Origin: Ignavibacteria bacterium
GTDB lineage: Bacteria; Bacteroidota; Ignavibacteria; Ignavibacteriales; Ignavibacteriaceae
Direction of reading: 5' to 3'
Length of the DNA: 52,217 nucleotides
Assembly (NCBI GenBank): GCA_030684555.1
Contig: JAUXVN010000117.1
Span: 1-52,217, forward strand
Below, piece by piece: positions 6,745 to 18,598 of the stretch. The notes beneath the pieces were generated by a model that did not search any database, was not told the origin of the DNA, and saw only the letters and a list, made by a program, of their open reading frames with translations. The first letter of the stretch is position 1, and each line of letters opens with the position of its first letter. The translations under genes and the position numbers were made by a program.

Positions 6745-6759
6745 ATAGTTTTATTAATC

Positions 6760-9196: not shown

Positions 9197-9647
9197 ATTT
9201 TATAGCCTAATGATGAAATGCCGGGAAGTGTTCGTAACGCATCTAAAGCTCTGGAATTATAGAGCTAAAGTTCAATATCTCTATTTTTTTCAACGTGATT
9301 CCCGTTGCCTCATTTCATTATACAATTTGTGATCTTACTTTAGAAAAAGAATAATCTACCCCATCATATTTAATAGATATTCCGGTAAAGCTTCAATAAA
9401 AAATCAAAACTAAATTATGAGATATTCAACAATTCTCGCAGACTCATTTGCAAACTTAAATTGTGATAGGAACAAAAACTTGTCCAAAAGATGTAGTTCT
9501 TTTATCATCCCTTTGAGTGATTGAATTAATATCACACCCTCCATAATATTACAAAGCATTAAAATAATAAGTGCAAAGCAAATTTGATTAATCAGGCTGG
9601 AACAGCCTCGAACTGATTTATCATTTTATCTATAATACTGTGAGAAT
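9197..9647. other. Intergenic region with an imperfect long palindrome and motif copy A
   Basis: No gene is visible. About 9209-9321 is an imperfect inverted repeat (TGATGAAATG with GGGAA on one side, TTCCCG with CATTTCATT on the other) with an inner AGCTCT/AGAGCT pair (9247-9252, 9261-9266). The 34-bp shared element lies at 9490-9523 and a small hairpin AGGCTG/CAGCCT at 9594-9608. Confidence 0.45.
9490..9523 (+). promoter_or_regulatory. Shared 34-bp upstream element, copy A
   Basis: The element begins GATGTAGT (9490-9497), contains TCATCCCTTTG (9505-9515) and ends ATTG. It matches copy C (18356-18389) at 30 of 34 positions and copy B (15930-15963) at 27 of 34, without gaps. Only a gene remnant follows here, so this copy may be orphaned. 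I infer a promoter or activator site. Confidence 0.6.
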
Positions 9648-9896
9648 ATTTCACTTAACATAAGTTGGGAAGTCCCGCTTAAAACGATTATGCCTTTAAT
9701 AGAAAAAGGACCTTACAAATATTTTAAGCATCCTAATTAAGCTATTGTAATAGCAGAAATAGCAATTATTCCTCTTGCATTTAATTTGTATTACACTGCA
9801 ATTGCTTTTACTATGCTCAATATGCTCATGTTATTTATAAGAATTAGAGAAGAAAACAAAGTATTAAATTTTCGAAACCAGATAGAATTATCATAA
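9648..9896 (+). pseudogene. Remnant of isoprenylcysteine-methyltransferase-like membrane protein
   Basis: The plus frame reads LNISWEVPLKTIMPLIEKG then PYKYFKHPN, followed by an in-frame TAA at 9738-9740. After it the same frame continues AIVIAEIAIIPLAFNLYYT and ends IRIREENKVLNFRNQIELS at 9896. The GPYKYFKHPN-(Y) box and the RIREE motif are the signature of the ICMT/PEMT-like C-terminal domain, where HPN is normally followed by Tyr. A single change from a Tyr codon to TAA would explain the stop. The N-terminal membrane segments are missing. It ends 10 bp before the flavin reductase, so it was probably co-transcribed with it. Confidence 0.7.
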
Positions 9897-9906
9897 ATCT
9901 AATAAT

Positions 9907-10578
9907 ATGAAACAGCAAATTGTAAAAATAAAGACTATTGATCATATCACACATGACGTGCTAAGAATTGTAACTGAGAAACCTCTGCATTACACGTTTA
10001 CCTCCGGACAAGCAACTGAAGTTTCAATCAATAAAAAAGATTGGCAGAATGAAAAAAGACCATTCACATTTACTTCTCTTCCAGACAACGAATACCTCGA
10101 ATTTATGATTAAAACTTATCCTTCTCATAAGAGCGTGACTAACGAACTTTTAAAGTCGAAAAAAGAAGACGAGTTGATTCTTCATGATGTGTTTGGTGCA
10201 ATTAATTATAAGGGTGAAGGTGTATTTATTGCCGGAGGGGCAGGAGTTACTCCATTCATTTCAATCTTAAGGTATCTTCAATCAATAAATGAAATAGGTG
10301 ATAACAAACTCATCTTTGCCAATAAAAAACAAGAGGATATAATACTTAAACAAGAGTTAAAAAAAATATTGGGTGACAAATTCATCAATATTTTATCCGA
10401 AGAAAAAGCGAATGGATATGCAAATGGTTTCATCACTATGGATTTTCTTCTGGATAATTTTGGCGGAATAAATCAATACTTTTATTTATGCGGTCCCCCG
10501 CCTATGATGGAGTTCGTAGAAAAACAGTTGCAAGATTTAAATGTTGGTGAGAAACATATAATTAAAGAAGAATTTTAG
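9907..10578 (+). CDS. FAD/NAD(P)-binding oxidoreductase (ferredoxin reductase-like)
   Basis: A compact 223-residue flavin reductase of the ferredoxin-NADP reductase superfamily. Residues 1-100 form the FAD-binding barrel with RPFTFTS (51-57). Residues 105-223 form the nucleotide-binding domain with GGAGVTP (110-116) and CGPPPMM (195-201). No 2Fe-2S or globin domain is attached, so it should pass electrons from NAD(P)H to a separate, unidentified partner. The gene opens the run of plus-strand genes of the stress-type island and is followed 20 bp later by a small acidic protein gene. Superfamily is certain; the redox partner is unknown. Confidence 0.88.
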   Translation: MKQQIVKIKTIDHITHDVLRIVTEKPLHYTFTSGQATEVSINKKDWQNEKRPFTFTSLPDNEYLEFMIKTYPSHKSVTNELLKSKKEDELILHDVFGAINYKGEGVFIAGGAGVTPFISILRYLQSINEIGDNKLIFANKKQEDIILKQELKKILGDKFINILSEEKANGYANGFITMDFLLDNFGGINQYFYLCGPPPMMEFVEKQLQDLNVGEKHIIKEEF

Positions 10579-10598
10579 TAAATAATGAGGTAGTGGTT

Positions 10599-10820
10599 AT
10601 GCAATCAGAAAAAGAACTTAATTCCAAAATACTGGAAATTACAATGACTATTCGGGAAAAGTATCCTGAACTTTATGAACATCTAGGAGAAATGCCTGTT
10701 ACAATTCCCAACATTGAAAATCCTGAAATAAACAATAAAAATTTAAGAGATTATTATGATTCGCTCAAATCTATATTGAAAAATTATGTGCATGAGCATT
10801 TACCGGAAGGTACAAAGTAA
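10599..10820 (+). CDS. Small acidic helical protein of unknown function
   Basis: A 73-residue soluble protein, rich in Glu and Asn, with predicted helices at both ends and a central MPVTIPNIENPEI segment. I do not recognise the family. ATG 10599 is chosen because TGAGG (10586-10590) lies at good spacing; the in-frame GTG at 10593 adds only two residues. It sits between the flavin reductase and the baeRF3 gene, which suggests a role in the same stress-related unit, but nothing in it shows a function. Confidence 0.7.
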   Translation: MQSEKELNSKILEITMTIREKYPELYEHLGEMPVTIPNIENPEINNKNLRDYYDSLKSILKNYVHEHLPEGTK

Positions 10821-10832
10821 TATAAAGTATTG

Positions 10833-10853
10833 AATTGAATAAATCATTCAATT
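10833..10853. repeat. Small perfect inverted repeat between genes
   Basis: AATTGAAT (10833-10840) and ATTCAATT (10846-10853) are separated by five bases. There is no T tract, so it could be an operator or an mRNA hairpin in the gap before the baeRF3 gene. Confidence 0.35.
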
Positions 10854-10889
10854 AGAATTAAACAAAAATAAAATTGAAAGAGTAATACT

Positions 10890-12068
10890 ATGCGTGAGGA
10901 AGAAAACAATATTATGGAATTGCTTACCACAGAATTAATTAAAGAACTCCTATCTATAGGCAGCACTCCATGTCTTTCACTTTATATGCCTACTTATAGA
11001 AGTCATCCTGAAAACCTTCAGGATCCGATAAGGTTTCAAAATCTCGTCAAACAATTTGAGGAATCCTTATTAGAACAATATTCTGCAATCGAAGTGAAGA
11101 AATTTCTTGAACCTTATTTAACTTTAAACAACAACAGCGAATTTTGGGGGCATACATTAGATGGACTTGCGGTTCTTGGTTCGACTGAATTTTTCAAAGT
11201 TATAAGGCTACCGATAGCAGTCCAAGAATTTGCAGTCGTAGCTGATAGTTTCAATACAAAGCCACTTCGACAATATTTACAGTCCGCAGATCGTTACCAT
11301 GTTTTGGGTTTGAGCCTTCATGAGATAAAACTCTTTGAAGGTAACCGTCATTCACTCGTTGAGGTAGATCTCCCGCCTGATTTTCCCCGAACCATAACAG
11401 AAGCACTTGGAGATGAATTAACCGGCAAACATACAACTGTTGCATCTTATGGCGGAACGGGTGGAGAAAGTTCAGACATGCACCATGGTCATGGCGGCAA
11501 GAAAGATGAAGTTGACAAAGATGCTGAAAGATTTTTTAATATAATTGCCAAAACTATTCACGAAAACTATTCAAAGCCTACAGGTTTGCCGCTTATACTT
11601 GCTGCTCTGCCCGAACACCATAGTCTTTTTCAAAAGTTAAGCAAAAATCCACTGCTGTTGCATGAAGGTATCAATATAAATCCTGCCTCTATTTCAACAG
11701 ATAAGATGATAAAATTAGCATGGGAAGTTGTGGAACCAGTCTATTTACAAAAGCTAAAAGATTTGGTTAAAAAGTTCGAACAGGCAAAAGCAAATAATTT
11801 AGGGAGTGATAACATTAAGGAAGTAATCAAAGCTGCTGAAGCAGGAAGAGTAGATACGATTCTTATTGAGAAAAACCGGGTAATTGCTGAAAGACTAAGA
11901 AATAAAAATACCGGGACTTTCAAACAAGCAGATTTAACAAAACCAATATTAGATGACCTTCTTGATGATATAGGAGAATTGGTAACAAAGATGGGTGGCG
12001 AAGTTCTGTTTATCCCGTCGGAGAAAATGCCTTCTAAAACCGGCATTGCCGCATTATATCGTTATTAA
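10890..12068 (+). CDS. baeRF family 3 (eRF1-like domain) protein
   Basis: A 392-residue protein that resembles the bacterial archaeo-eukaryotic release factor-like family 3. It has the early CLSLYMPTYRSHPEN segment, DGLAVLGS, a VLGLSLHEIKLFEGNRHSL strand-turn, and a C-terminal half with AGRVDTILIEKN that mirrors the eRF1 domain 3 arrangement. Families of this kind have been proposed to act on ribosomes under stress, but no activity is established for this branch. A His/Gly-rich loop (SSDMHHGHGGKK, about 190-203) lies in the middle and might bind metal. ATG 10890 is preceded by GAAAGAG. Its position beside small stress membrane proteins fits a stress role. Confidence 0.8.
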   Translation: MREEENNIMELLTTELIKELLSIGSTPCLSLYMPTYRSHPENLQDPIRFQNLVKQFEESLLEQYSAIEVKKFLEPYLTLNNNSEFWGHTLDGLAVLGSTEFFKVIRLPIAVQEFAVVADSFNTKPLRQYLQSADRYHVLGLSLHEIKLFEGNRHSLVEVDLPPDFPRTITEALGDELTGKHTTVASYGGTGGESSDMHHGHGGKKDEVDKDAERFFNIIAKTIHENYSKPTGLPLILAALPEHHSLFQKLSKNPLLLHEGININPASISTDKMIKLAWEVVEPVYLQKLKDLVKKFEQAKANNLGSDNIKEVIKAAEAGRVDTILIEKNRVIAERLRNKNTGTFKQADLTKPILDDLLDDIGELVTKMGGEVLFIPSEKMPSKTGIAALYRY

Positions 12069-12261
12069 AGAGTGTTTCCTCCCTATGCCAACTATAATTA
12101 TAAATTTTATATACAATAGAGGGACGTTTGAGAAATCATTAGTAACGGTTAAGAATTATCGGGGCTTTGAAATTACGGATTGATAAGTATTCGGAAATAT
12201 TATTGCTGAATAAGGCAAATGTATTTTAAACAATAATTTTATAAAAACGTGGGAAAGAAAA

Positions 12262-13113
12262 ATGAATAAAATGATTGATGAATCAGTGTCTGTAATTGCC
12301 AGGGCAGAATATATAGAAGTAGAACCCAATGTAAGTCTTCATATTACAGATGCAGGCGAAGGCAGACCTATTGTGTTAATGCATGGTTGGCCGTTAAGTG
12401 ATGAAATGTTTGAATACCAATACAACGATCTGGTAAATAAAAACTTTCGAGTAATTGGTATTACTCTAAGAGGTTTTGGTAAATCTGATAAACTATACAG
12501 AGCTTATGATTACAATATACATTCATCAGATGTTAAAAAAGTTTTAGAAAAGTTGAAAATAGAGGATGCAGTTTTAGTTGGCTTTTCCATGGGCGGTGCT
12601 ATCGTAATTCGTTTTGTGGCAAATTACGATGGAGCTCATGTTTCTAAGCTGGTTTTGGCTGCTGCTGCAGCACCGATTTGGACACAGCGCAAAGATTTTC
12701 CTTACAATCTTCCCCAAAGCGCGGTTGATGATTTAATTGAATTGAACTATAAAGATCGACCGAAACTCTTAGCAGATTTTGCAAAGATATTTTCTGCTGC
12801 CGAAACCTCATTAAATGAAGGCATCGGAAATTGGTTGAATGGAATTTGTTTGAGTGCTTCTTCTTATGCAACAGCTCAATGTTTAATCGCTTTGCGTGAT
12901 ACAGATCTGAGAAATGATCTGAAGAAAATAAAAATTCCTACAGTGATTATGCACGGCAGAAAAGACAAAATATGTTCTTTTGATCTAGCGGAACAGATGA
13001 AAGCCGGAATCTCAAATTCACACATTGTTGCTTTTGAGAATAGCGGACATAGCATGTTTCTGGAGGAAACTAAAAAGTTTAATGCAGAGCTAATCAAATT
13101 TGCAGGAGAATGA
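12262..13113 (+). CDS. Alpha/beta-fold hydrolase (haloperoxidase/esterase-like)
   Basis: A 283-residue alpha/beta hydrolase close in pattern to the cofactor-free haloperoxidase and esterase group. The oxyanion-hole motif HGWPLS is at 41-46, the nucleophile elbow GFSMGG gives Ser109, and the rest of the triad is Asp235 (HGRKD) and His263 (SGHS). There is no signal peptide, so it is cytoplasmic. An ordinary esterase or lactonase activity is at least as likely as peroxidation. The start is preceded by GGGAAAG. It lies between the baeRF3 and DUF202 genes on the same strand. Confidence 0.9.
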   Translation: MNKMIDESVSVIARAEYIEVEPNVSLHITDAGEGRPIVLMHGWPLSDEMFEYQYNDLVNKNFRVIGITLRGFGKSDKLYRAYDYNIHSSDVKKVLEKLKIEDAVLVGFSMGGAIVIRFVANYDGAHVSKLVLAAAAAPIWTQRKDFPYNLPQSAVDDLIELNYKDRPKLLADFAKIFSAAETSLNEGIGNWLNGICLSASSYATAQCLIALRDTDLRNDLKKIKIPTVIMHGRKDKICSFDLAEQMKAGISNSHIVAFENSGHSMFLEETKKFNAELIKFAGE

Positions 13114-13115
13114 AC

Positions 13116-13136
13116 TGAATGACTTATAATCATTCA
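13116..13136. repeat. Small perfect inverted repeat after hydrolase gene
   Basis: TGAATGA (13116-13122) and TCATTCA (13130-13136) are separated by seven bases just past the hydrolase stop codon. There is no T tract, so it is a weak hairpin or protein-binding site. Confidence 0.3.
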
Positions 13137-13203
13137 AACAGTCTCGAAATAATATTGAACAATAAAAGAAAATGAAAAATGTAATTATGCTGAAAGGTGA
13201 TCC

Positions 13204-13614
13204 ATGGATGAGATAATAAATGAGAAGAGCACTTCCAAAATTCTTAATCGCCGTGTTCACATGGCGAATGAAAGAACATTTCTTGCATGGATAAGAACAA
13301 GCATAGGAATAATGGCATTCGGTTTTGTTGTTGAAAAGTTTGCGTTGTTCATAAAGCAAATGTCATTGATTTTGGGAAAAGCTAATATTGGAAATGCTTT
13401 GCCTCCTTCTCGTGGAGATTCGGCAATCGTTGGAATATTCCTAGTTGGTCTTGGCACTTTGATGGGGCTGCTTGCATTTATAAGATATAAGAAGATAGAA
13501 AGACAAATAGAGGAGGATACATACAAGCCATCGTTCGTACTTGATATACTGCTCACCATATCAGTCCTTGCAGTCGGAATCTTTCTTGTAATTTATTTGA
13601 TTCATAGTACTTAA
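13204..13614 (+). CDS. DUF202 (YidH-type) inner-membrane protein
   Basis: A 136-residue membrane protein of the DUF202 family. It has the family signature HMANERTFLAWIRTSIGIM at residues 19-37 leading into the first membrane helix, then further helices near 75-95 and 113-134. The biochemical role of DUF202 proteins is unknown; they often travel with stress and transport genes. AAAGGTG precedes the ATG at good spacing. It follows the hydrolase gene by 90 bp and precedes the metallophosphatase on the same strand. Confidence 0.9.
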   Translation: MDEIINEKSTSKILNRRVHMANERTFLAWIRTSIGIMAFGFVVEKFALFIKQMSLILGKANIGNALPPSRGDSAIVGIFLVGLGTLMGLLAFIRYKKIERQIEEDTYKPSFVLDILLTISVLAVGIFLVIYLIHST

Positions 13615-13727
13615 TTCGAATGAAGACGGCAATGAAAAATGGGCAAACAATCAATAACTCTAAAAACTAAACGATTATGAATGCACTAAAAAGATTTGAT
13701 TTATTTTAAAAAAAAAGAAAAGGTAAA

Positions 13728-15155
13728 ATGCAATTATCAATAGCTTATATTAATGATGTACATGGTTACCTTGAACCACATCCTGAATTATTCTACAAAG
13801 GTGGTAAAGAAATCATAGAGACTGCTGGTGGTTTTTCTCGTATTGTTTCTATAATAAAGGTTATTAGAAAAAGTAACACGAACACCTTATTGTTTGATGG
13901 TGGAGATACCTTTCATGGTACATTACCACTAATCCATTCGAAAGGGGAAGCTATCGTCCCTATACTAAATAAAATGGGCTTTAATGCAATGGTTGGTCAT
14001 TGGGATTTCGCATATGGTCCGCAACAACTAAAAAATATTGCGAGTCAGTTAAACTATCCCATATTAGGCATTAATGTGTATGGCGAAGATAACAGCCTAT
14101 TTCTTCCACCTTACATTATAGAAGAAGTTGAAGATCTGAAAATAGCTGTAATTGGTATTTGTTCTAATATCATCGATAAAACAATGCCGAAGCAATTTAG
14201 CGAAGGATTAAAAATCACAGATGGTTCAAAGGAGTTGCCTGGGTATATTCAAAAAGTAAAGGATGAAGGTGCAAATCTTATAATACTTCTTTCACACAAT
14301 GGATTTCCGCAAGATATTGATTTGCTTTCGGAAATAAATGGTGTGGATATTTGTTTGAGCGCTCATACTCATAACCGATTATATGAAACTATAAAAATTA
14401 ATAATACAATTGTTATTCAATGCGGTTGTCACGGTTCTTTTTTAGGACATATTGAATTGAATATTCTGGAAAAGAAAATTATTGATTTCACGTATAAACT
14501 TATCACCATTGATTCATCTGTTAAACCGGATAATGATATTGAAAATATGGTTGTTGATATTATAAAACCATTTCAAAATTTAAAGCAAGAAGTAGTTGGA
14601 CAAACACCCGTCATATTACATAGATATAACACGCTGGAATCCACAATGGATAATCTTTTATTATCAGCCATAAAGTCGTTAAGTAAATCTGATATTGCAT
14701 TCTCAAACGGTTGGCGTTACGGAGTACCCATTCCTATTGGCCCAATAACCAAATGGGATTTATTCAACATTATTCCCATGAATCCAGTGGTTTCTACGGT
14801 ACAACTTACTGGCAATGAAATAATAAATATGCTTGAAGAAAATTTGGAACGGACATTTTCTTCTGACCCTATGAAACAAATGGGTGGATATGTTAAAAGA
14901 TGTTTGGGCTTACATGTAAAAATGAGGATTGAAAATCCAAAAGGGTATCGAATCCAGCAAATATTTATTGGTGATGAGCCGCTGATAAGAGAAAAAACAT
15001 ACGAAGCAGCTTTTGTTACAATGCAGGGTGTGCCGGAAAAATTAGGTAAGAATAGGCTAAACTTATCCATAAAGGCAGTTGATGCAATGGCAGAGTATTT
15101 AGTTCAAAACCCTAATTTTACAAATTTTTATCACAACACTTTTTGTTTGGTATAA
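13728..15155 (+). CDS. SoxB/5'-nucleotidase-family metallophosphatase without signal peptide
   Basis: A 475-residue two-domain enzyme: a calcineurin-like metallophosphatase domain (about 1-250) and a 5'-nucleotidase C-terminal domain (about 290-450). Metal-ligand motifs are NDVHG (9-13), GGDTFHG (58-64), LSHNG and SAHTHNR. The third motif reads GHWDF (90-94) instead of the usual G-N-H-D/E, a variant I associate with SoxB-type proteins. Relatives normally carry a Sec or Tat signal and act in the periplasm. This one starts right at the first catalytic strand, so it should be cytoplasmic. No other sox gene is nearby, which argues for nucleotide or phosphoester hydrolysis rather than thiosulfate oxidation. 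Confidence 0.85.
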   Translation: MQLSIAYINDVHGYLEPHPELFYKGGKEIIETAGGFSRIVSIIKVIRKSNTNTLLFDGGDTFHGTLPLIHSKGEAIVPILNKMGFNAMVGHWDFAYGPQQLKNIASQLNYPILGINVYGEDNSLFLPPYIIEEVEDLKIAVIGICSNIIDKTMPKQFSEGLKITDGSKELPGYIQKVKDEGANLIILLSHNGFPQDIDLLSEINGVDICLSAHTHNRLYETIKINNTIVIQCGCHGSFLGHIELNILEKKIIDFTYKLITIDSSVKPDNDIENMVVDIIKPFQNLKQEVVGQTPVILHRYNTLESTMDNLLLSAIKSLSKSDIAFSNGWRYGVPIPIGPITKWDLFNIIPMNPVVSTVQLTGNEIINMLEENLERTFSSDPMKQMGGYVKRCLGLHVKMRIENPKGYRIQQIFIGDEPLIREKTYEAAFVTMQGVPEKLGKNRLNLSIKAVDAMAEYLVQNPNFTNFYHNTFCLV

Positions 15156-15265
15156 TTGATGAACCATTCATGGATAAGCTATCAAACCCAGGAAGAGTGA
15201 GGTTATAAAATAGTAAGTGTAAAGTCGAAAGTGATTAGTTAAAAAAATATGAAAGGATAAAAATT

Positions 15266-15457
15266 ATGTCATTAATAACAATAGTAATTGTTTTAGTTGT
15301 TGTTGGAGTTATTCTCTGGCTGATTAATAACTACATTCCGATGCAGGCTACTATTAAGAAAATCTTAAATGCCGTTGTGGTTATCGCAGTCATTCTTTGG
15401 CTGCTCAATGCATTCGGAGTTATAGGAAGCCTCGATACGATTCGTATTGGTAATTAA
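15266..15457 (+). CDS. Thivi_2564-type small membrane protein
   Basis: A 63-residue protein with two membrane helices (about 3-22 and 33-53) joined by NNYIPMQATIKK. This matches the small family annotated as Thivi_2564, whose function is unknown. AAAGGATAAAA precedes the ATG. It belongs to the set of tiny hydrophobic proteins in this island, with GlsB/YeaQ and lmo0937 types, that commonly appear in envelope-stress settings. Confidence 0.85.
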   Translation: MSLITIVIVLVVVGVILWLINNYIPMQATIKKILNAVVVIAVILWLLNAFGVIGSLDTIRIGN

Positions 15458-15594
15458 TACTACTTCACTTCCTTCATCCTTGAATGAAGCAATTTAGTTA
15501 AGGATGGAGAATTAAATAGAAAAGAAAAAGAAATCAATTCTTATAAAGATGATTTCAACTGAAAAATTTATTAACAAAAATTTAAGAGATAGTT

Positions 15595-15846
15595 ATGGAA
15601 ATTATAGGAACTCTAGTTGTCGGTTTAATTGCAGGAGTCATTGCAAAATTATTATTGCCGGGTAAAGATCCGGGCGGCTGCATAATAACAATTCTACTTG
15701 GAATTGGAGGCGCATTTGTTGCGACTTATCTAGGCAAATTTTTAGGAATTTATGAACCTGGTGAAACAGCAGGTTTTATTGGTGCAGTAATTGGAGCTGT
15801 GATTATTTTATTATTTTATAGAATGTTCCTTAAGAGAAAAAACTAA
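15595..15846 (+). CDS. GlsB/YeaQ/YmgE-family stress membrane protein
   Basis: An 83-residue, three-helix membrane protein of the transglycosylase-associated (GlsB/YeaQ/YmgE) family. Typical features are GLIAGVIAKLLLPGKDPGGC near 10-29, a glycine-rich second helix and a hydrophobic C-terminal helix ending in RMFLKRKN. Members are induced by stress in several bacteria, but their molecular role is not established. It is followed by motif copy B. Confidence 0.92.
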   Translation: MEIIGTLVVGLIAGVIAKLLLPGKDPGGCIITILLGIGGAFVATYLGKFLGIYEPGETAGFIGAVIGAVIILLFYRMFLKRKN

Positions 15847-15929
15847 GGGATTATTGATATCCTTATTAAGAGCTTATTAGAATTCAATTTTCAAGTTTGA
15901 TAATTGCAATGAAATTTTTTCGTACATAT

Positions 15930-15963
15930 GATGTAGTCTCATTTTCATCCCTTTGATCGATTG
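15930..15963 (+). promoter_or_regulatory. Shared 34-bp upstream element, copy B
   Basis: It begins GATGTAGT, contains TCATCCCTTTG (15945-15955) and ends GATTG. It is ungapped with copies A and C. It lies 77 bp upstream of a 28-codon reading frame with a good ribosome binding site and follows the GlsB-type gene. Inferred promoter or activator site. Confidence 0.65.
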
Positions 15964-16040
15964 ATAGACTTAAAATCAGCAAGAAAGTTGAAATAAAAAC
16001 TAAATCTAATTTTATTAATTGTTAATGGAGATAAACAAAA

Positions 16041-16127
16041 ATGAAAACATCAAATAGAAAAAAAAATAACAATTCTAAGATTACTGATCTTGCAAAAAAT
16101 AAAAAAAAGGGACATGCCAATTTTTAA
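16041..16127 (+). CDS. Possible 28-residue Lys/Asn-rich peptide
   Basis: ATG 16041 opens a 28-codon frame, MKTSNRKKNNNSKITDLAK then NKKKGHANF, preceded by TGGAG at proper spacing. It is strongly basic with no membrane segment. It lies downstream of motif copy B in the same relative position as the lmo0937-type gene behind copy C, which supports real expression. I do not recognise the sequence, and coding status rests on context. Confidence 0.4.
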   Translation: MKTSNRKKNNNSKITDLAKNKKKGHANF

Positions 16128-16179
16128 CAAAATTCCGATGTAACGGCAGATCGGTTTCGGTGTGGGCGCTTAAAGGAGA

Positions 16180-16311
16180 ATGTATTTTATAGTAAAACAT
16201 AGATTTATTAATAGAAGAAATTCAGTACTTAATATTATTACTGTTAGTGGTAACAGTAAGATTAACCTGCAAAACTCAAAAGCAGTTTTTATTGACATAA
16301 AAGTAAAATAA
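16180..16311 (+). CDS. Doubtful 43-residue open frame
   Basis: ATG 16180 follows AAAGGAG with only one base between, which is closer than usual for translation. The frame encodes 43 residues without recognisable features. It may be chance in AT-rich DNA. It is recorded because the 16128-16377 gap otherwise holds nothing I can name. Confidence 0.2.
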   Translation: MYFIVKHRFINRRNSVLNIITVSGNSKINLQNSKAVFIDIKVK

Positions 16312-16377
16312 CAATAATTTAATACCCGACAATCTACTTAAAAATATTTTGCCGAATAATTAATTTATAAAAATATT

Positions 16378-17661
16378 ATGGCTCATTTAACTACACGCTC
16401 CGCATACAAGAATTTGGTAGATAGGATTAATCAATTACCACAAGGAGCCCCACCCTCAGAATTACTTTATAAAATTTTAGAAATGTTATTCACCGAAAAA
16501 GAGGCCGGGTTTGTAGCATCACTACCAATAAAACCATTTACTGCAGAGGAAGCAGCATACTTAACTAAAAAATCTTTGAGTGAAACTCGAAAAATACTGG
16601 ACGAACTTTCAGCAAAGGGAATTTTATTGGATGTTGAACAAAATGGACAACCGATTTACTCTCTTCCTCCGCCAATGGCAGGCTTCTTTGAATTTTCGAT
16701 GATGAGAATCCGTGCCGATATTGATCAAAAAGTTTTGGCAGAACTCTTCTATCAATATCTTAATGTGGAAGAAGATTTTATTAAACAGCTTTTTACTGGA
16801 GGAATCACTCAACCGGGAAGAACTTTTGTGAATGAAAATGCCTTGAGCGAAGCGCACAAATTGGAAGTCCTAGATTATGAAAAAGCAAGCGAAGTAATTA
16901 GAACAGCAAGCCATAGAGCTGTTGGAATGTGCTATTGCCGGCATAAGATGGAACATCTCGGTAAAGCGTGCGATGCACCTATGGAGATTTGCTTAACATT
17001 CAATAATGTTGCCGCCTCTTTAATAAAACATAACATTGCCAAAGAAATTGATTTACAAGAAGGAATGGATTTACTTCAAACTGCCTATGATAACAATCTT
17101 GTTCAGTTCGGCGAAAACGCAAGAGAGGAAGTTAGTTTTATATGCAATTGTTGTGGCTGTTGTTGCGAAGCGATGCTCGCCGCAAAAAGATTCGCAATGC
17201 TGCATCCGGTACACACTACAAATTATCTCCCTGTCGTAACAACAGAAGATTGTAATGGATGCGGAAAGTGTGTGAATGTCTGTCCTGTTGAAGCTATGAG
17301 TCTTGTTTCTGCTAATGATCCGCTGAAGAAAAAAAGAAAGAAAGCAGTTTTAAATGAAGATATTTGTCTTGGATGCGGATTGTGTGTTCGAGCTTGTACT
17401 GCTGGGAATATTCATCTGATAGAACGAAAGCAAAGAGTGATTACTCCTCTCAACAGTGCTCACAGAGTTGTATTGATGGCAATTGAGCGCGGGAAATTTC
17501 AAAATCTAATCTTCGATCAACAAGCTTTGTGGAATCACCGGGCAATGGCGGCAATACTTGGTGTGATTGTAAAACTTCCTCCGGTTAAACAAGTGCTTGC
17601 AAGTAATCAATTGAAATCACGTTACTTGGAATATCTTTTGTCAAATTATAATAAAAATTAA
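16378..17661 (+). CDS. Winged-helix/multi-cysteine 4Fe-4S protein
   Basis: A 427-residue soluble iron-sulfur protein. Residues about 30-100 look like a winged-helix domain. A central region carries CYCRHKMEHLGKAC (185-198) and Cys205, then a dense CNCCGCCCE stretch (256-264). Two ferredoxin-type 4Fe-4S motifs follow: Cys292/295/298/302 and Cys330/333/336/340. The C-terminal 80 residues are cysteine-free. It therefore probably binds two classical clusters plus at least one unusual one. The mix suggests a redox-sensing or electron-transfer role, but no partner enzyme is encoded beside it. The next frame, an AI-2E permease fragment, begins 4 bp downstream. Confidence 0.82.
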   Translation: MAHLTTRSAYKNLVDRINQLPQGAPPSELLYKILEMLFTEKEAGFVASLPIKPFTAEEAAYLTKKSLSETRKILDELSAKGILLDVEQNGQPIYSLPPPMAGFFEFSMMRIRADIDQKVLAELFYQYLNVEEDFIKQLFTGGITQPGRTFVNENALSEAHKLEVLDYEKASEVIRTASHRAVGMCYCRHKMEHLGKACDAPMEICLTFNNVAASLIKHNIAKEIDLQEGMDLLQTAYDNNLVQFGENAREEVSFICNCCGCCCEAMLAAKRFAMLHPVHTTNYLPVVTTEDCNGCGKCVNVCPVEAMSLVSANDPLKKKRKKAVLNEDICLGCGLCVRACTAGNIHLIERKQRVITPLNSAHRVVLMAIERGKFQNLIFDQQALWNHRAMAAILGVIVKLPPVKQVLASNQLKSRYLEYLLSNYNKN

Positions 17662-17665
17662 AAAC

Positions 17666-18217
17666 TTGTATGCAGATTGTATAAAACTTGAATCTCTATT
17701 ACTTGTTCAGAACTATTTAGTAGAATTGCTAACAGCGACCGGTATAGTTGCAGTTTTGAATACTGTAGGTTTAATCATTTTGGGAGTCGAGTATGCTGTA
17801 TTGATTGGAGGAATCAGTGCTTTACTCAATATTATTCCTTATATCGGCGGTATTGTTGCAATGGCTTTAACAATTGTTATAGTTCTAGCAACTAAATCGC
17901 CAATATATGCTCTTTGGGTGCTGATATTATACGGTACGGTTCAGTTTATAGATAACAATATTCTGATGCCCAAAATTGTTTCATCAAAAATAAAAATTAA
18001 TGAGTTTATATCAATCATAGCAGTATTAGTTGGTGGTGCATTATGGGGAATCCCGGGGATGTTTCTTTCTTTACCAATTATAGCCATACTGAAAGTAATA
18101 TTTGATCGTATTGATCCTTTAAAACCATTTGGATTTGTACTTGGTAACACTATGTCATCCAATGAAGGAAAGTTTTTAAAATTTTCTGAAAAGAAAGCTA
18201 AAGCAAGCAACTCTTAA
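17666..18217 (+). pseudogene. AI-2E family transporter, C-terminal half only
   Basis: The frame encodes about 183 residues matching the last half of AI-2E family permeases: ALLNIIPYIGGI, FIDNNILMPKIV and a GALWGIPGMFLSLP helix-turn. Full-length members have about 350 residues and more membrane helices. Here the N-terminal half is absent and the frame begins at a TTG right after the Fe-S gene. I read it as a gene cut by a deletion that joined it to the Fe-S gene. A functional short version cannot be excluded, since the frame is intact to its end. Confidence 0.65.
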
Positions 18218-18355
18218 TAAAAATAACTTATAATGAAAGACTTAAGAAATGATGTTAGGTATTTTAGAAAAACATCATTTTTTTACCATCTTGATTTTTC
18301 TCTATGTTAATCCCCATAAAAATTTAATCACCTTTTGAAAGTTACTCACCCGAAA

Positions 18356-18389
18356 GATGTAGTTCTTTTTTCATCCCTTTGCCTAATTG
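18356..18389 (+). promoter_or_regulatory. Shared 34-bp upstream element, copy C
   Basis: It begins GATGTAGT, contains TCATCCCTTTG (18371-18381) and ends AATTG. It matches copy A at 30 of 34 positions. It ends 59 bp before the ATG of the lmo0937-type gene, the clearest gene association of the three copies. Confidence 0.7.
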
Positions 18390-18448
18390 TATCACTTAAT
18401 CTCTTTCCATAATTTTAATTAAGAATTTTAATAGAAAGGATCATTTAT

Positions 18449-18598
18449 ATGTTATACACTATTGCAGTTATTTTAATAGTTCTCTGGCTTGTTGGGTTAC
18501 TTACCACGTACACAATGGGTGGAGTTGTTCACGTACTTCTAGTCATCGCAATTATCATGATCATTTTAAACGTAGTCCGTGGAAGAAAAGCGTTATAA
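18449..18598 (+). CDS. lmo0937-type small membrane protein
   Basis: A 49-residue protein, MLYTIAVILIVLWLVGLL then TTYTMGGVVHVLLVIAIIM and a short basic tail GRKAL. Two membrane helices flank TTYTMGG, the pattern of the small family annotated as lmo0937, which is often found in stress gene sets and has no known activity. GAAAGGA sits before the ATG. It is directly preceded by motif copy C, so it is the best candidate target of that element. Confidence 0.85.
   Translation: MLYTIAVILIVLWLVGLLTTYTMGGVVHVLLVIAIIMIILNVVRGRKAL

Follow-up and report, generated by a model that had tools for sequence, protein, structure and literature searches.

A conserved promoter box in the Ignavibacteria and its candidate NarL-type response regulator

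The window analysed here, a stretch of 52,217 nucleotides on contig JAUXVN010000117.1 of an Ignavibacteria bacterium (GCA_030684555.1), contains three copies of a 34-bp element described in an earlier note. We find that a 44-bp box, ending in a -35-like hexamer, has this element as its core. Judging from comparison of its copies, the box is probably the binding site of a NarL-type response regulator, lying upstream of and overlapping the -35 of a sigma70-type promoter, and would define a stress-type regulon of about 20 promoters in this genome. The same regulon appears to recur in many genomes of class Ignavibacteria, and we give the regulator reading and the recurrence jointly a probability of about 0.77. 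Literature searches returned nothing on this box, nor a described regulon of this kind for the class.

Results

With the G of GATG as position 1, a conserved block spans positions -9 to 34 (44 bp) in an alignment of 82 sites from 30 stretches. After some 20 positions of low conservation comes TANNNT at positions 55-60, with A56 present in 76 and T60 in 80 of the 82 sites. The claim that likeness between the intergenic regions stops at 34 bp therefore fails; it continues on the upstream side, from about -9 to 0, and takes in a -10 hexamer at constant distance. That hexamer is present in copies A (TAATAT) and C (TAATTT) of the window, and not in copy B (AAAGTT). A -35-like hexamer occupies box positions 32-37, 17 bp ahead of the -10 slot, and reads TTGAAT in A, TTGATA in B and TTGTAT in C; the conserved columns reach position 34, so the box overlaps it. 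Among 265 unique sites from 125 loci, gathered with a profile that stops before the -10 hexamer, TANNNT lies exactly at offset 54 in 187, while the next best offset has 48 sites and most have fewer than 20. The block holds about 55 bits of information and positions 35-54 only 5.1 bits. Fifty-five bits is much for a single factor, suggesting that more than one dimer is bound. The element most plausibly represents an activator box joined to a sigma70-type promoter and overlapping its -35, with both hexamers assigned a predicted function.

The three 34-bp copies lie at 9490-9523, 15930-15963 and 18356-18389, all on the plus strand, as originally described. Copies A and B agree at 27 of the 34 positions and A and C at 30, again as described, and B and C at 26. 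The gapped pattern GATGTAGT-N7-TCATCCCTTTG has exactly these three matches in the window and none in 100 dinucleotide shuffles. No copy is inside a credible gene, copy A overlapping only an otherwise unsupported open reading frame (ORF) of 49 aa on the minus strand (Table 1). The proposed link to small stress-type genes stands for copy C, which precedes a gene of the lmo0937 family. It is uncertain for B, which is followed by a 28-aa ORF without relatives (tblastn at E<=0.01 against the loci collected in this analysis found only its own place). Copy A is now followed by a gene relic. Among the three, only copy C joins a full promoter to a recognisable gene. The relic, which we take to resemble an isoprenylcysteine-type methyltransferase, is 68% identical to a related stretch on another contig of the same genome (L022:10566-10763). 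Copy A thus looks like a promoter that has outlived its gene, while the related stretch stays open.

Table 1. Features of the three box copies in the window, and the two regulator genes of the same genome
Feature	Position	Strand	Basis or remark
Copy A, 44-bp box	9480-9523	+	Pattern and profile, E 7.4e-15; 34-bp element at 9490-9523
Copy A, -35-like hexamer TTGAAT	9521-9526	+	
Copy A, -10-like hexamer TAATAT	9544-9549	+	17-bp spacer; predicted transcription start near 9556
49-aa ORF overlapping copy A	9410-9559	-	Mechanical ORF list only
Gene relic behind copy A	about 9690-9896	+	One in-frame stop; related open stretch elsewhere in genome
Copy B, box	15920-15963	+	Pattern and profile, E 2.1e-11
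Copy B, -35-like hexamer TTGATA	15961-15966	+	
Copy B, -10 slot	15984-15989	+	Reads AAAGTT
28-aa lysine-rich ORF behind copy B, putative coding	16041-16127	+	Starts 78 bp past the end of copy B
Copy C, 44-bp box	18346-18389	+	Pattern and profile, E 1.2e-15, best in genome
Copy C, -35-like hexamer TTGTAT	18387-18392	+	
Copy C, -10-like hexamer TAATTT	18410-18415	+	17-bp spacer; predicted transcription start near 18422
49-aa lmo0937/DUF5670 membrane protein, copy C target	18449-18598	+	NCBIfam lmo0937 family; 60 bp past copy C
RR-B gene in this genome	G000:C134:941-1633		Box 22 bp behind, then KaiC-like gene
RR-A gene in this genome	G000:C117:730-1419		Box 252 bp in front

The genome to which the window belongs (4.34 Mb, 152 contigs) has 16 matches to the gapped pattern at up to three mismatches and none to the reversed pattern. 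With a profile derived from 60 sites, 19 places score at E<=4.6e-8 and another two near 0.003, the next match being at 0.14, which puts the number of copies at 19 to 21. Five of them, all oriented alike, are spaced at intervals of about 4 kb on a single 24.6-kb contig (G000:C5; L017, L018), where two precede long PAS histidine kinases, a possible input to the regulon. A dense stress island is found on a 72.6-kb contig of another genome (G038:C18), with 13 matches at up to two mismatches in the same orientation.

Class-wide, the profile places the box in 77 of 294 genomes at E<=1e-4. Single pattern matches with two mismatches in three genomes (G003, G006, G007) look like chance and were discarded, as the profile finds none there at E<=0.01. 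With one genome per species of GTDB r220, a scan that may omit copies of the window's own genome, the exact form of the box occurs in 101 stretches: 79 are labelled Ignavibacteriota, 20 Bacteroidota, one Chlorobiota and one is unranked. At least some of the labels outside Ignavibacteriota are wrong, since one Chlorobiaceae and one Bacteroidetes contig correspond to contigs of the window's own order (G021:C8 and G057:C8). The sole exact match among 2.9 million IMG/VR viral contigs is at L356:1615-1640, on the putatively viral 92.6-kb contig IMGVR_UViG_3300037132_000276; none of the island proteins matched the L356 stretch at 1e-15.

The position of the sites is tied to genes. Only two of 112 sites at the island loci with ORF calls fall inside ORFs of at least 100 aa, compared with 75% of random positions. 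The ORF that comes next shares the strand of the site in 92 of 111 cases, at a median distance of 90 bp; the ORF calls behind these counts are mechanical. The hits are thus not scattered regardless of genes. Together with the fixed promoter geometry, their intergenic place and gene orientation support the earlier suggestion of selection on a regulatory site. An ORF of at least 38 aa starts 66-420 bp downstream of 257 of the 265 sites, and three sites have none despite enough DNA.

The downstream genes were clustered, and domain names were assigned by testing one member per family. The largest cluster comprises 28 proteins that resemble surface proteins of ice-binding or Ig-like type; PF11999 is matched by a member of this family in G046. 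It is followed by response regulators and PAS kinases (26), KaiC-like proteins (17; PF06745), radical SAM proteins (12; DUF4070), lysine-rich proteins of 41-45 aa (11), CsbD (10; PF05532) and lmo0937/DUF5670 (9; PF18919). MlaE, YtxH (PF12732), bacterioferritin (TIGR00754) and others are also found behind the box. In another family of the class, the regulator and box are followed at two loci (L319, box on the minus strand at 6754; L336, box on the plus strand near 1978 to 2629) by an ORF that resembles, by eye, a gene for an extracytoplasmic function sigma factor. If that is what it encodes, two levels of control would be chained.

We next consider the candidate regulator. Two paralogous response regulators, RR-A (P0001) and RR-B (L065:7359-8048), are found in the islands, and both carry Response_reg and GerE domains above the Pfam cut-offs; this is the family present in most island sets (14 of 15). 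The best NCBIfam model for RR-B is NarL (NF007935), at 132 bits against a cut-off of 250, so that RR-B shares the receiver and GerE domains with NarL without being a NarL equivalog. Motifs of the type IEDN, LLDLG and FILK are present in most aligned copies of both, presumably the acid pair, the phospho-acceptor Asp and the Lys of the receiver. The recognition-helix region TVKSHVHNI(L/M)EKL is nearly constant across RR-B copies. One receiver position, which we take to be a normally conserved Thr or Ser, is Asp in most RR-A and RR-B copies (VMDL in 66 and IMDL in 10 aligned) and Gly in others, raising the possibility of unusual switching.

The regulator, matched with one query at E<=1e-45, occurs in 81 of the 294 class genomes. 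Box and regulator are found together in 69, the regulator alone in 12, the box alone in 8 and neither in 205 (Fisher p 5e-45, a value that ignores shared ancestry). In the nearer 59 genomes, 21 hold both, 2 the box only, none the regulator only and 36 neither, with cut-offs picked afterwards and profile matches at E 0.005-0.009 in G016, G019 and G050 excluded. NarL-type regulators in general do not discriminate: at E<=1e-20 they are present in 56 of the 59 near genomes. The KaiC-like ATPase (E<=1e-200) served as a control from within the regulon. All 43 genomes that have it also have the regulator, and it is present in 41 of the 77 box genomes, compared with 69 of 77 for the regulator.

The two regulator genes are also physically linked to the box, each in its own way. 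For RR-A, 22 of 34 records, among which one gene appears twice, show a box in front. Not one of 59 RR-B copies does; four of these lie within about 450 bp of the end of a stretch and have incomplete upstream DNA. Instead, a box follows the RR-B stop codon within 60 bp in 38 of the 59 and within 300 bp in 47. For the 27 clearest type-B copies, the box is within 60 bp behind in 23 and at 18-29 bp in 21, mostly at 24-25 bp. Because the stretches used for linkage are biased to box-bearing genomes, regulator-only genomes were examined as well (ten of the twelve, with G069 outside this set). There, a diverged box scoring at least 9.5 follows 12 of the 17 regulator copies. Nine of these 12, from seven genomes, exceed 10.5, the single top score of a reversed-sequence control, and the opposite-strand control reaches at most -9.0. 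Diverged sites are likewise seen in G010, one of them both before RR-A and behind RR-B.

Some of the diverged sites hint at how the box is read. GGATTAATCC, GGACTAGTCC and GAATTAATTC are perfect palindromes, as are 10 of 100 far sites in all, centred on the near-invariant TA at positions 5-6. Complementarity around this centre (5.5) reaches 63% in far sites and 55% in near ones. Second best is a centre at 27.5, with 41% and 39%; it lies 22 bp away, or two helical turns, and overlaps the -35. The arrangement may be read as two adjacent dimers of a NarL-type regulator, of which the second contacts the -35, as described for DevR promoters (PMC3029386).

We infer the following working. A signal would reach the regulator, perhaps through the PAS histidine kinases that stand behind some boxes, and phosphorylation would presumably play a role. 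The regulator would then occupy the box, probably with two dimers on the same face of the DNA, and activate transcription by recruiting RNA polymerase to promoters whose -35 hexamers are weak. RR-A, itself often behind a box, would amplify the response, and RR-B, boxless in front and usually box-tailed, would carry a target promoter along with its own gene.

Discussion

Several observations weigh against a regulator-bound activator box. In the window itself, copy B lacks a -10 hexamer and copy A drives a relic. The whole box has no significant dyad (permuted sequences are as good in 86% of cases) or direct repeat (16.5%). In the left half of diverged sites, covariation beyond column composition is weak, 193 of 5000 shuffles being as good, or 631 of 5000 within families, and only the pair 4-7 is clear by itself (9 of 2000). 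Eight class genomes have the box and no regulator at E<=1e-45, although in one of them (G048) a broken copy adjoins a box; in the near set, G046 has boxes and no regulator match better than E 3e-21, in a genome that is 88% complete. The island copies were selected for holding boxes and the class-wide stretches were taken from genomes with both, which bears on the linkage counts. About 11 of 31 recurrent island families were outside the Pfam run, and another DNA-binding protein may be among them.

A rival view is that another, unlinked transcription factor binds the box and that the response regulators are only regulon members travelling with the islands. RR-A, so often behind a box, does look like a target; the eight genomes without the regulator point the same way, and other regulators, LacI-like in two cases, sit behind single boxes. 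We nevertheless consider an unlinked factor unlikely. RR-B has no box in front, yet is tied to one behind it at short, constant spacing in several families, and the KaiC-like control member tracks the box far less than the regulator does. Less likely again is that the regulator binds the box to repress, at a site overlapping the -35. The conserved block does overlap the -35-like hexamer, but the bulk of it lies upstream, the -35 hexamers are poor, and the spacer and start are without conserved cover.

The remaining alternatives were rejected. The earlier note had offered an activator box or an alternative sigma promoter, and only the former fits. Taking GATGTAGT and TCATCCCTTTG as the hexamers of an alternative sigma factor would account for two highly conserved blocks about 16 bp apart with strong orientation towards genes. 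A second, conventional pair (TTGAAT-like, 17 bp, TANNNT) nevertheless follows at fixed spacing, and 44 positions are conserved, not two hexamers alone; this makes such a promoter very improbable. Forty-four conserved positions far exceed what a sigma factor is known to read. Many copies clustered on few contigs in one orientation could also suggest a mobile or terminal repeat, an explanation to which we give almost no credence, as the copies are intergenic and gene-oriented, the sequences between them are unrelated, and the promoter geometry is fixed. An RNA element was dismissed since the box is upstream of the predicted start and so would be untranscribed from its own promoter.

A more tentative idea, which we regard as possible but on balance doubtful, is that RR-B and the box behind its stop codon form a portable unit placed before many unrelated genes, recruiting each neighbour into the stress regulon. 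Genes behind such units at similar spacing encode KaiC-like, lmo0937, lysine-rich 41-45 aa, 43-aa lipoprotein-like, radical SAM and response-regulator proteins. On a tree of 48 rows the downstream gene changes 17 times, the least possible being 6. Two labels on this tree were set by hand (L065_7359 as lmo0937 type and L073_-147 as KaiC type) because the ORF picker took another frame or the edge of the stretch cut the gene. Against a portable unit, the labels are more clustered than chance (17 changes versus a shuffled mean of 27.4), and 18 of 45 inner forks are weak. If portable, a regulator with a promoter behind it would be a simple route for the regulon to gain new genes.

The regulator-bound box has counterparts in known systems. 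The DevR/DosR regulon of Mycobacterium tuberculosis is described as having a NarL-subfamily regulator and closely packed boxes, the start-proximal one overlapping the -35, in front of stress and dormancy genes (PMC3029386). A NarL-type regulator (a candidate here), a box overlapping the -35 and stress genes are shared, a likeness of features. The box sequence is different, and the sensor kinases differ or are unassigned here. A regulator gene with a target promoter just behind it, as seen here, does not figure for DevR/DosR in the parts of PMC3029386 drawn upon. In Streptomyces coelicolor, the NarL-type OsdR has numerous sites, both in the region of its own gene and ahead of stress genes, with a 16-nt palindrome, AGGGCCGATCGGCCCT, as box (PMC5069765). 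Common to both systems are multiple boxes near the regulator gene and in front of stress genes, and discovery by comparison of orthologue regions. Unlike that 16-nt palindrome, the box here spans 44 bp, and only its left half is roughly palindromic in diverged members such as GGATTAATCC and GGACTAGTCC.

For a little-studied class, these results provide a regulatory map consisting of a box, its promoter geometry, its targets and a candidate regulator. Many small stress-type proteins of unassigned role, among them lmo0937/DUF5670, CsbD, YtxH and the lysine-rich peptides, would come under one testable switch, and the same switch would cover KaiC-like ATPases, bacterioferritin and ice-binding-like proteins.

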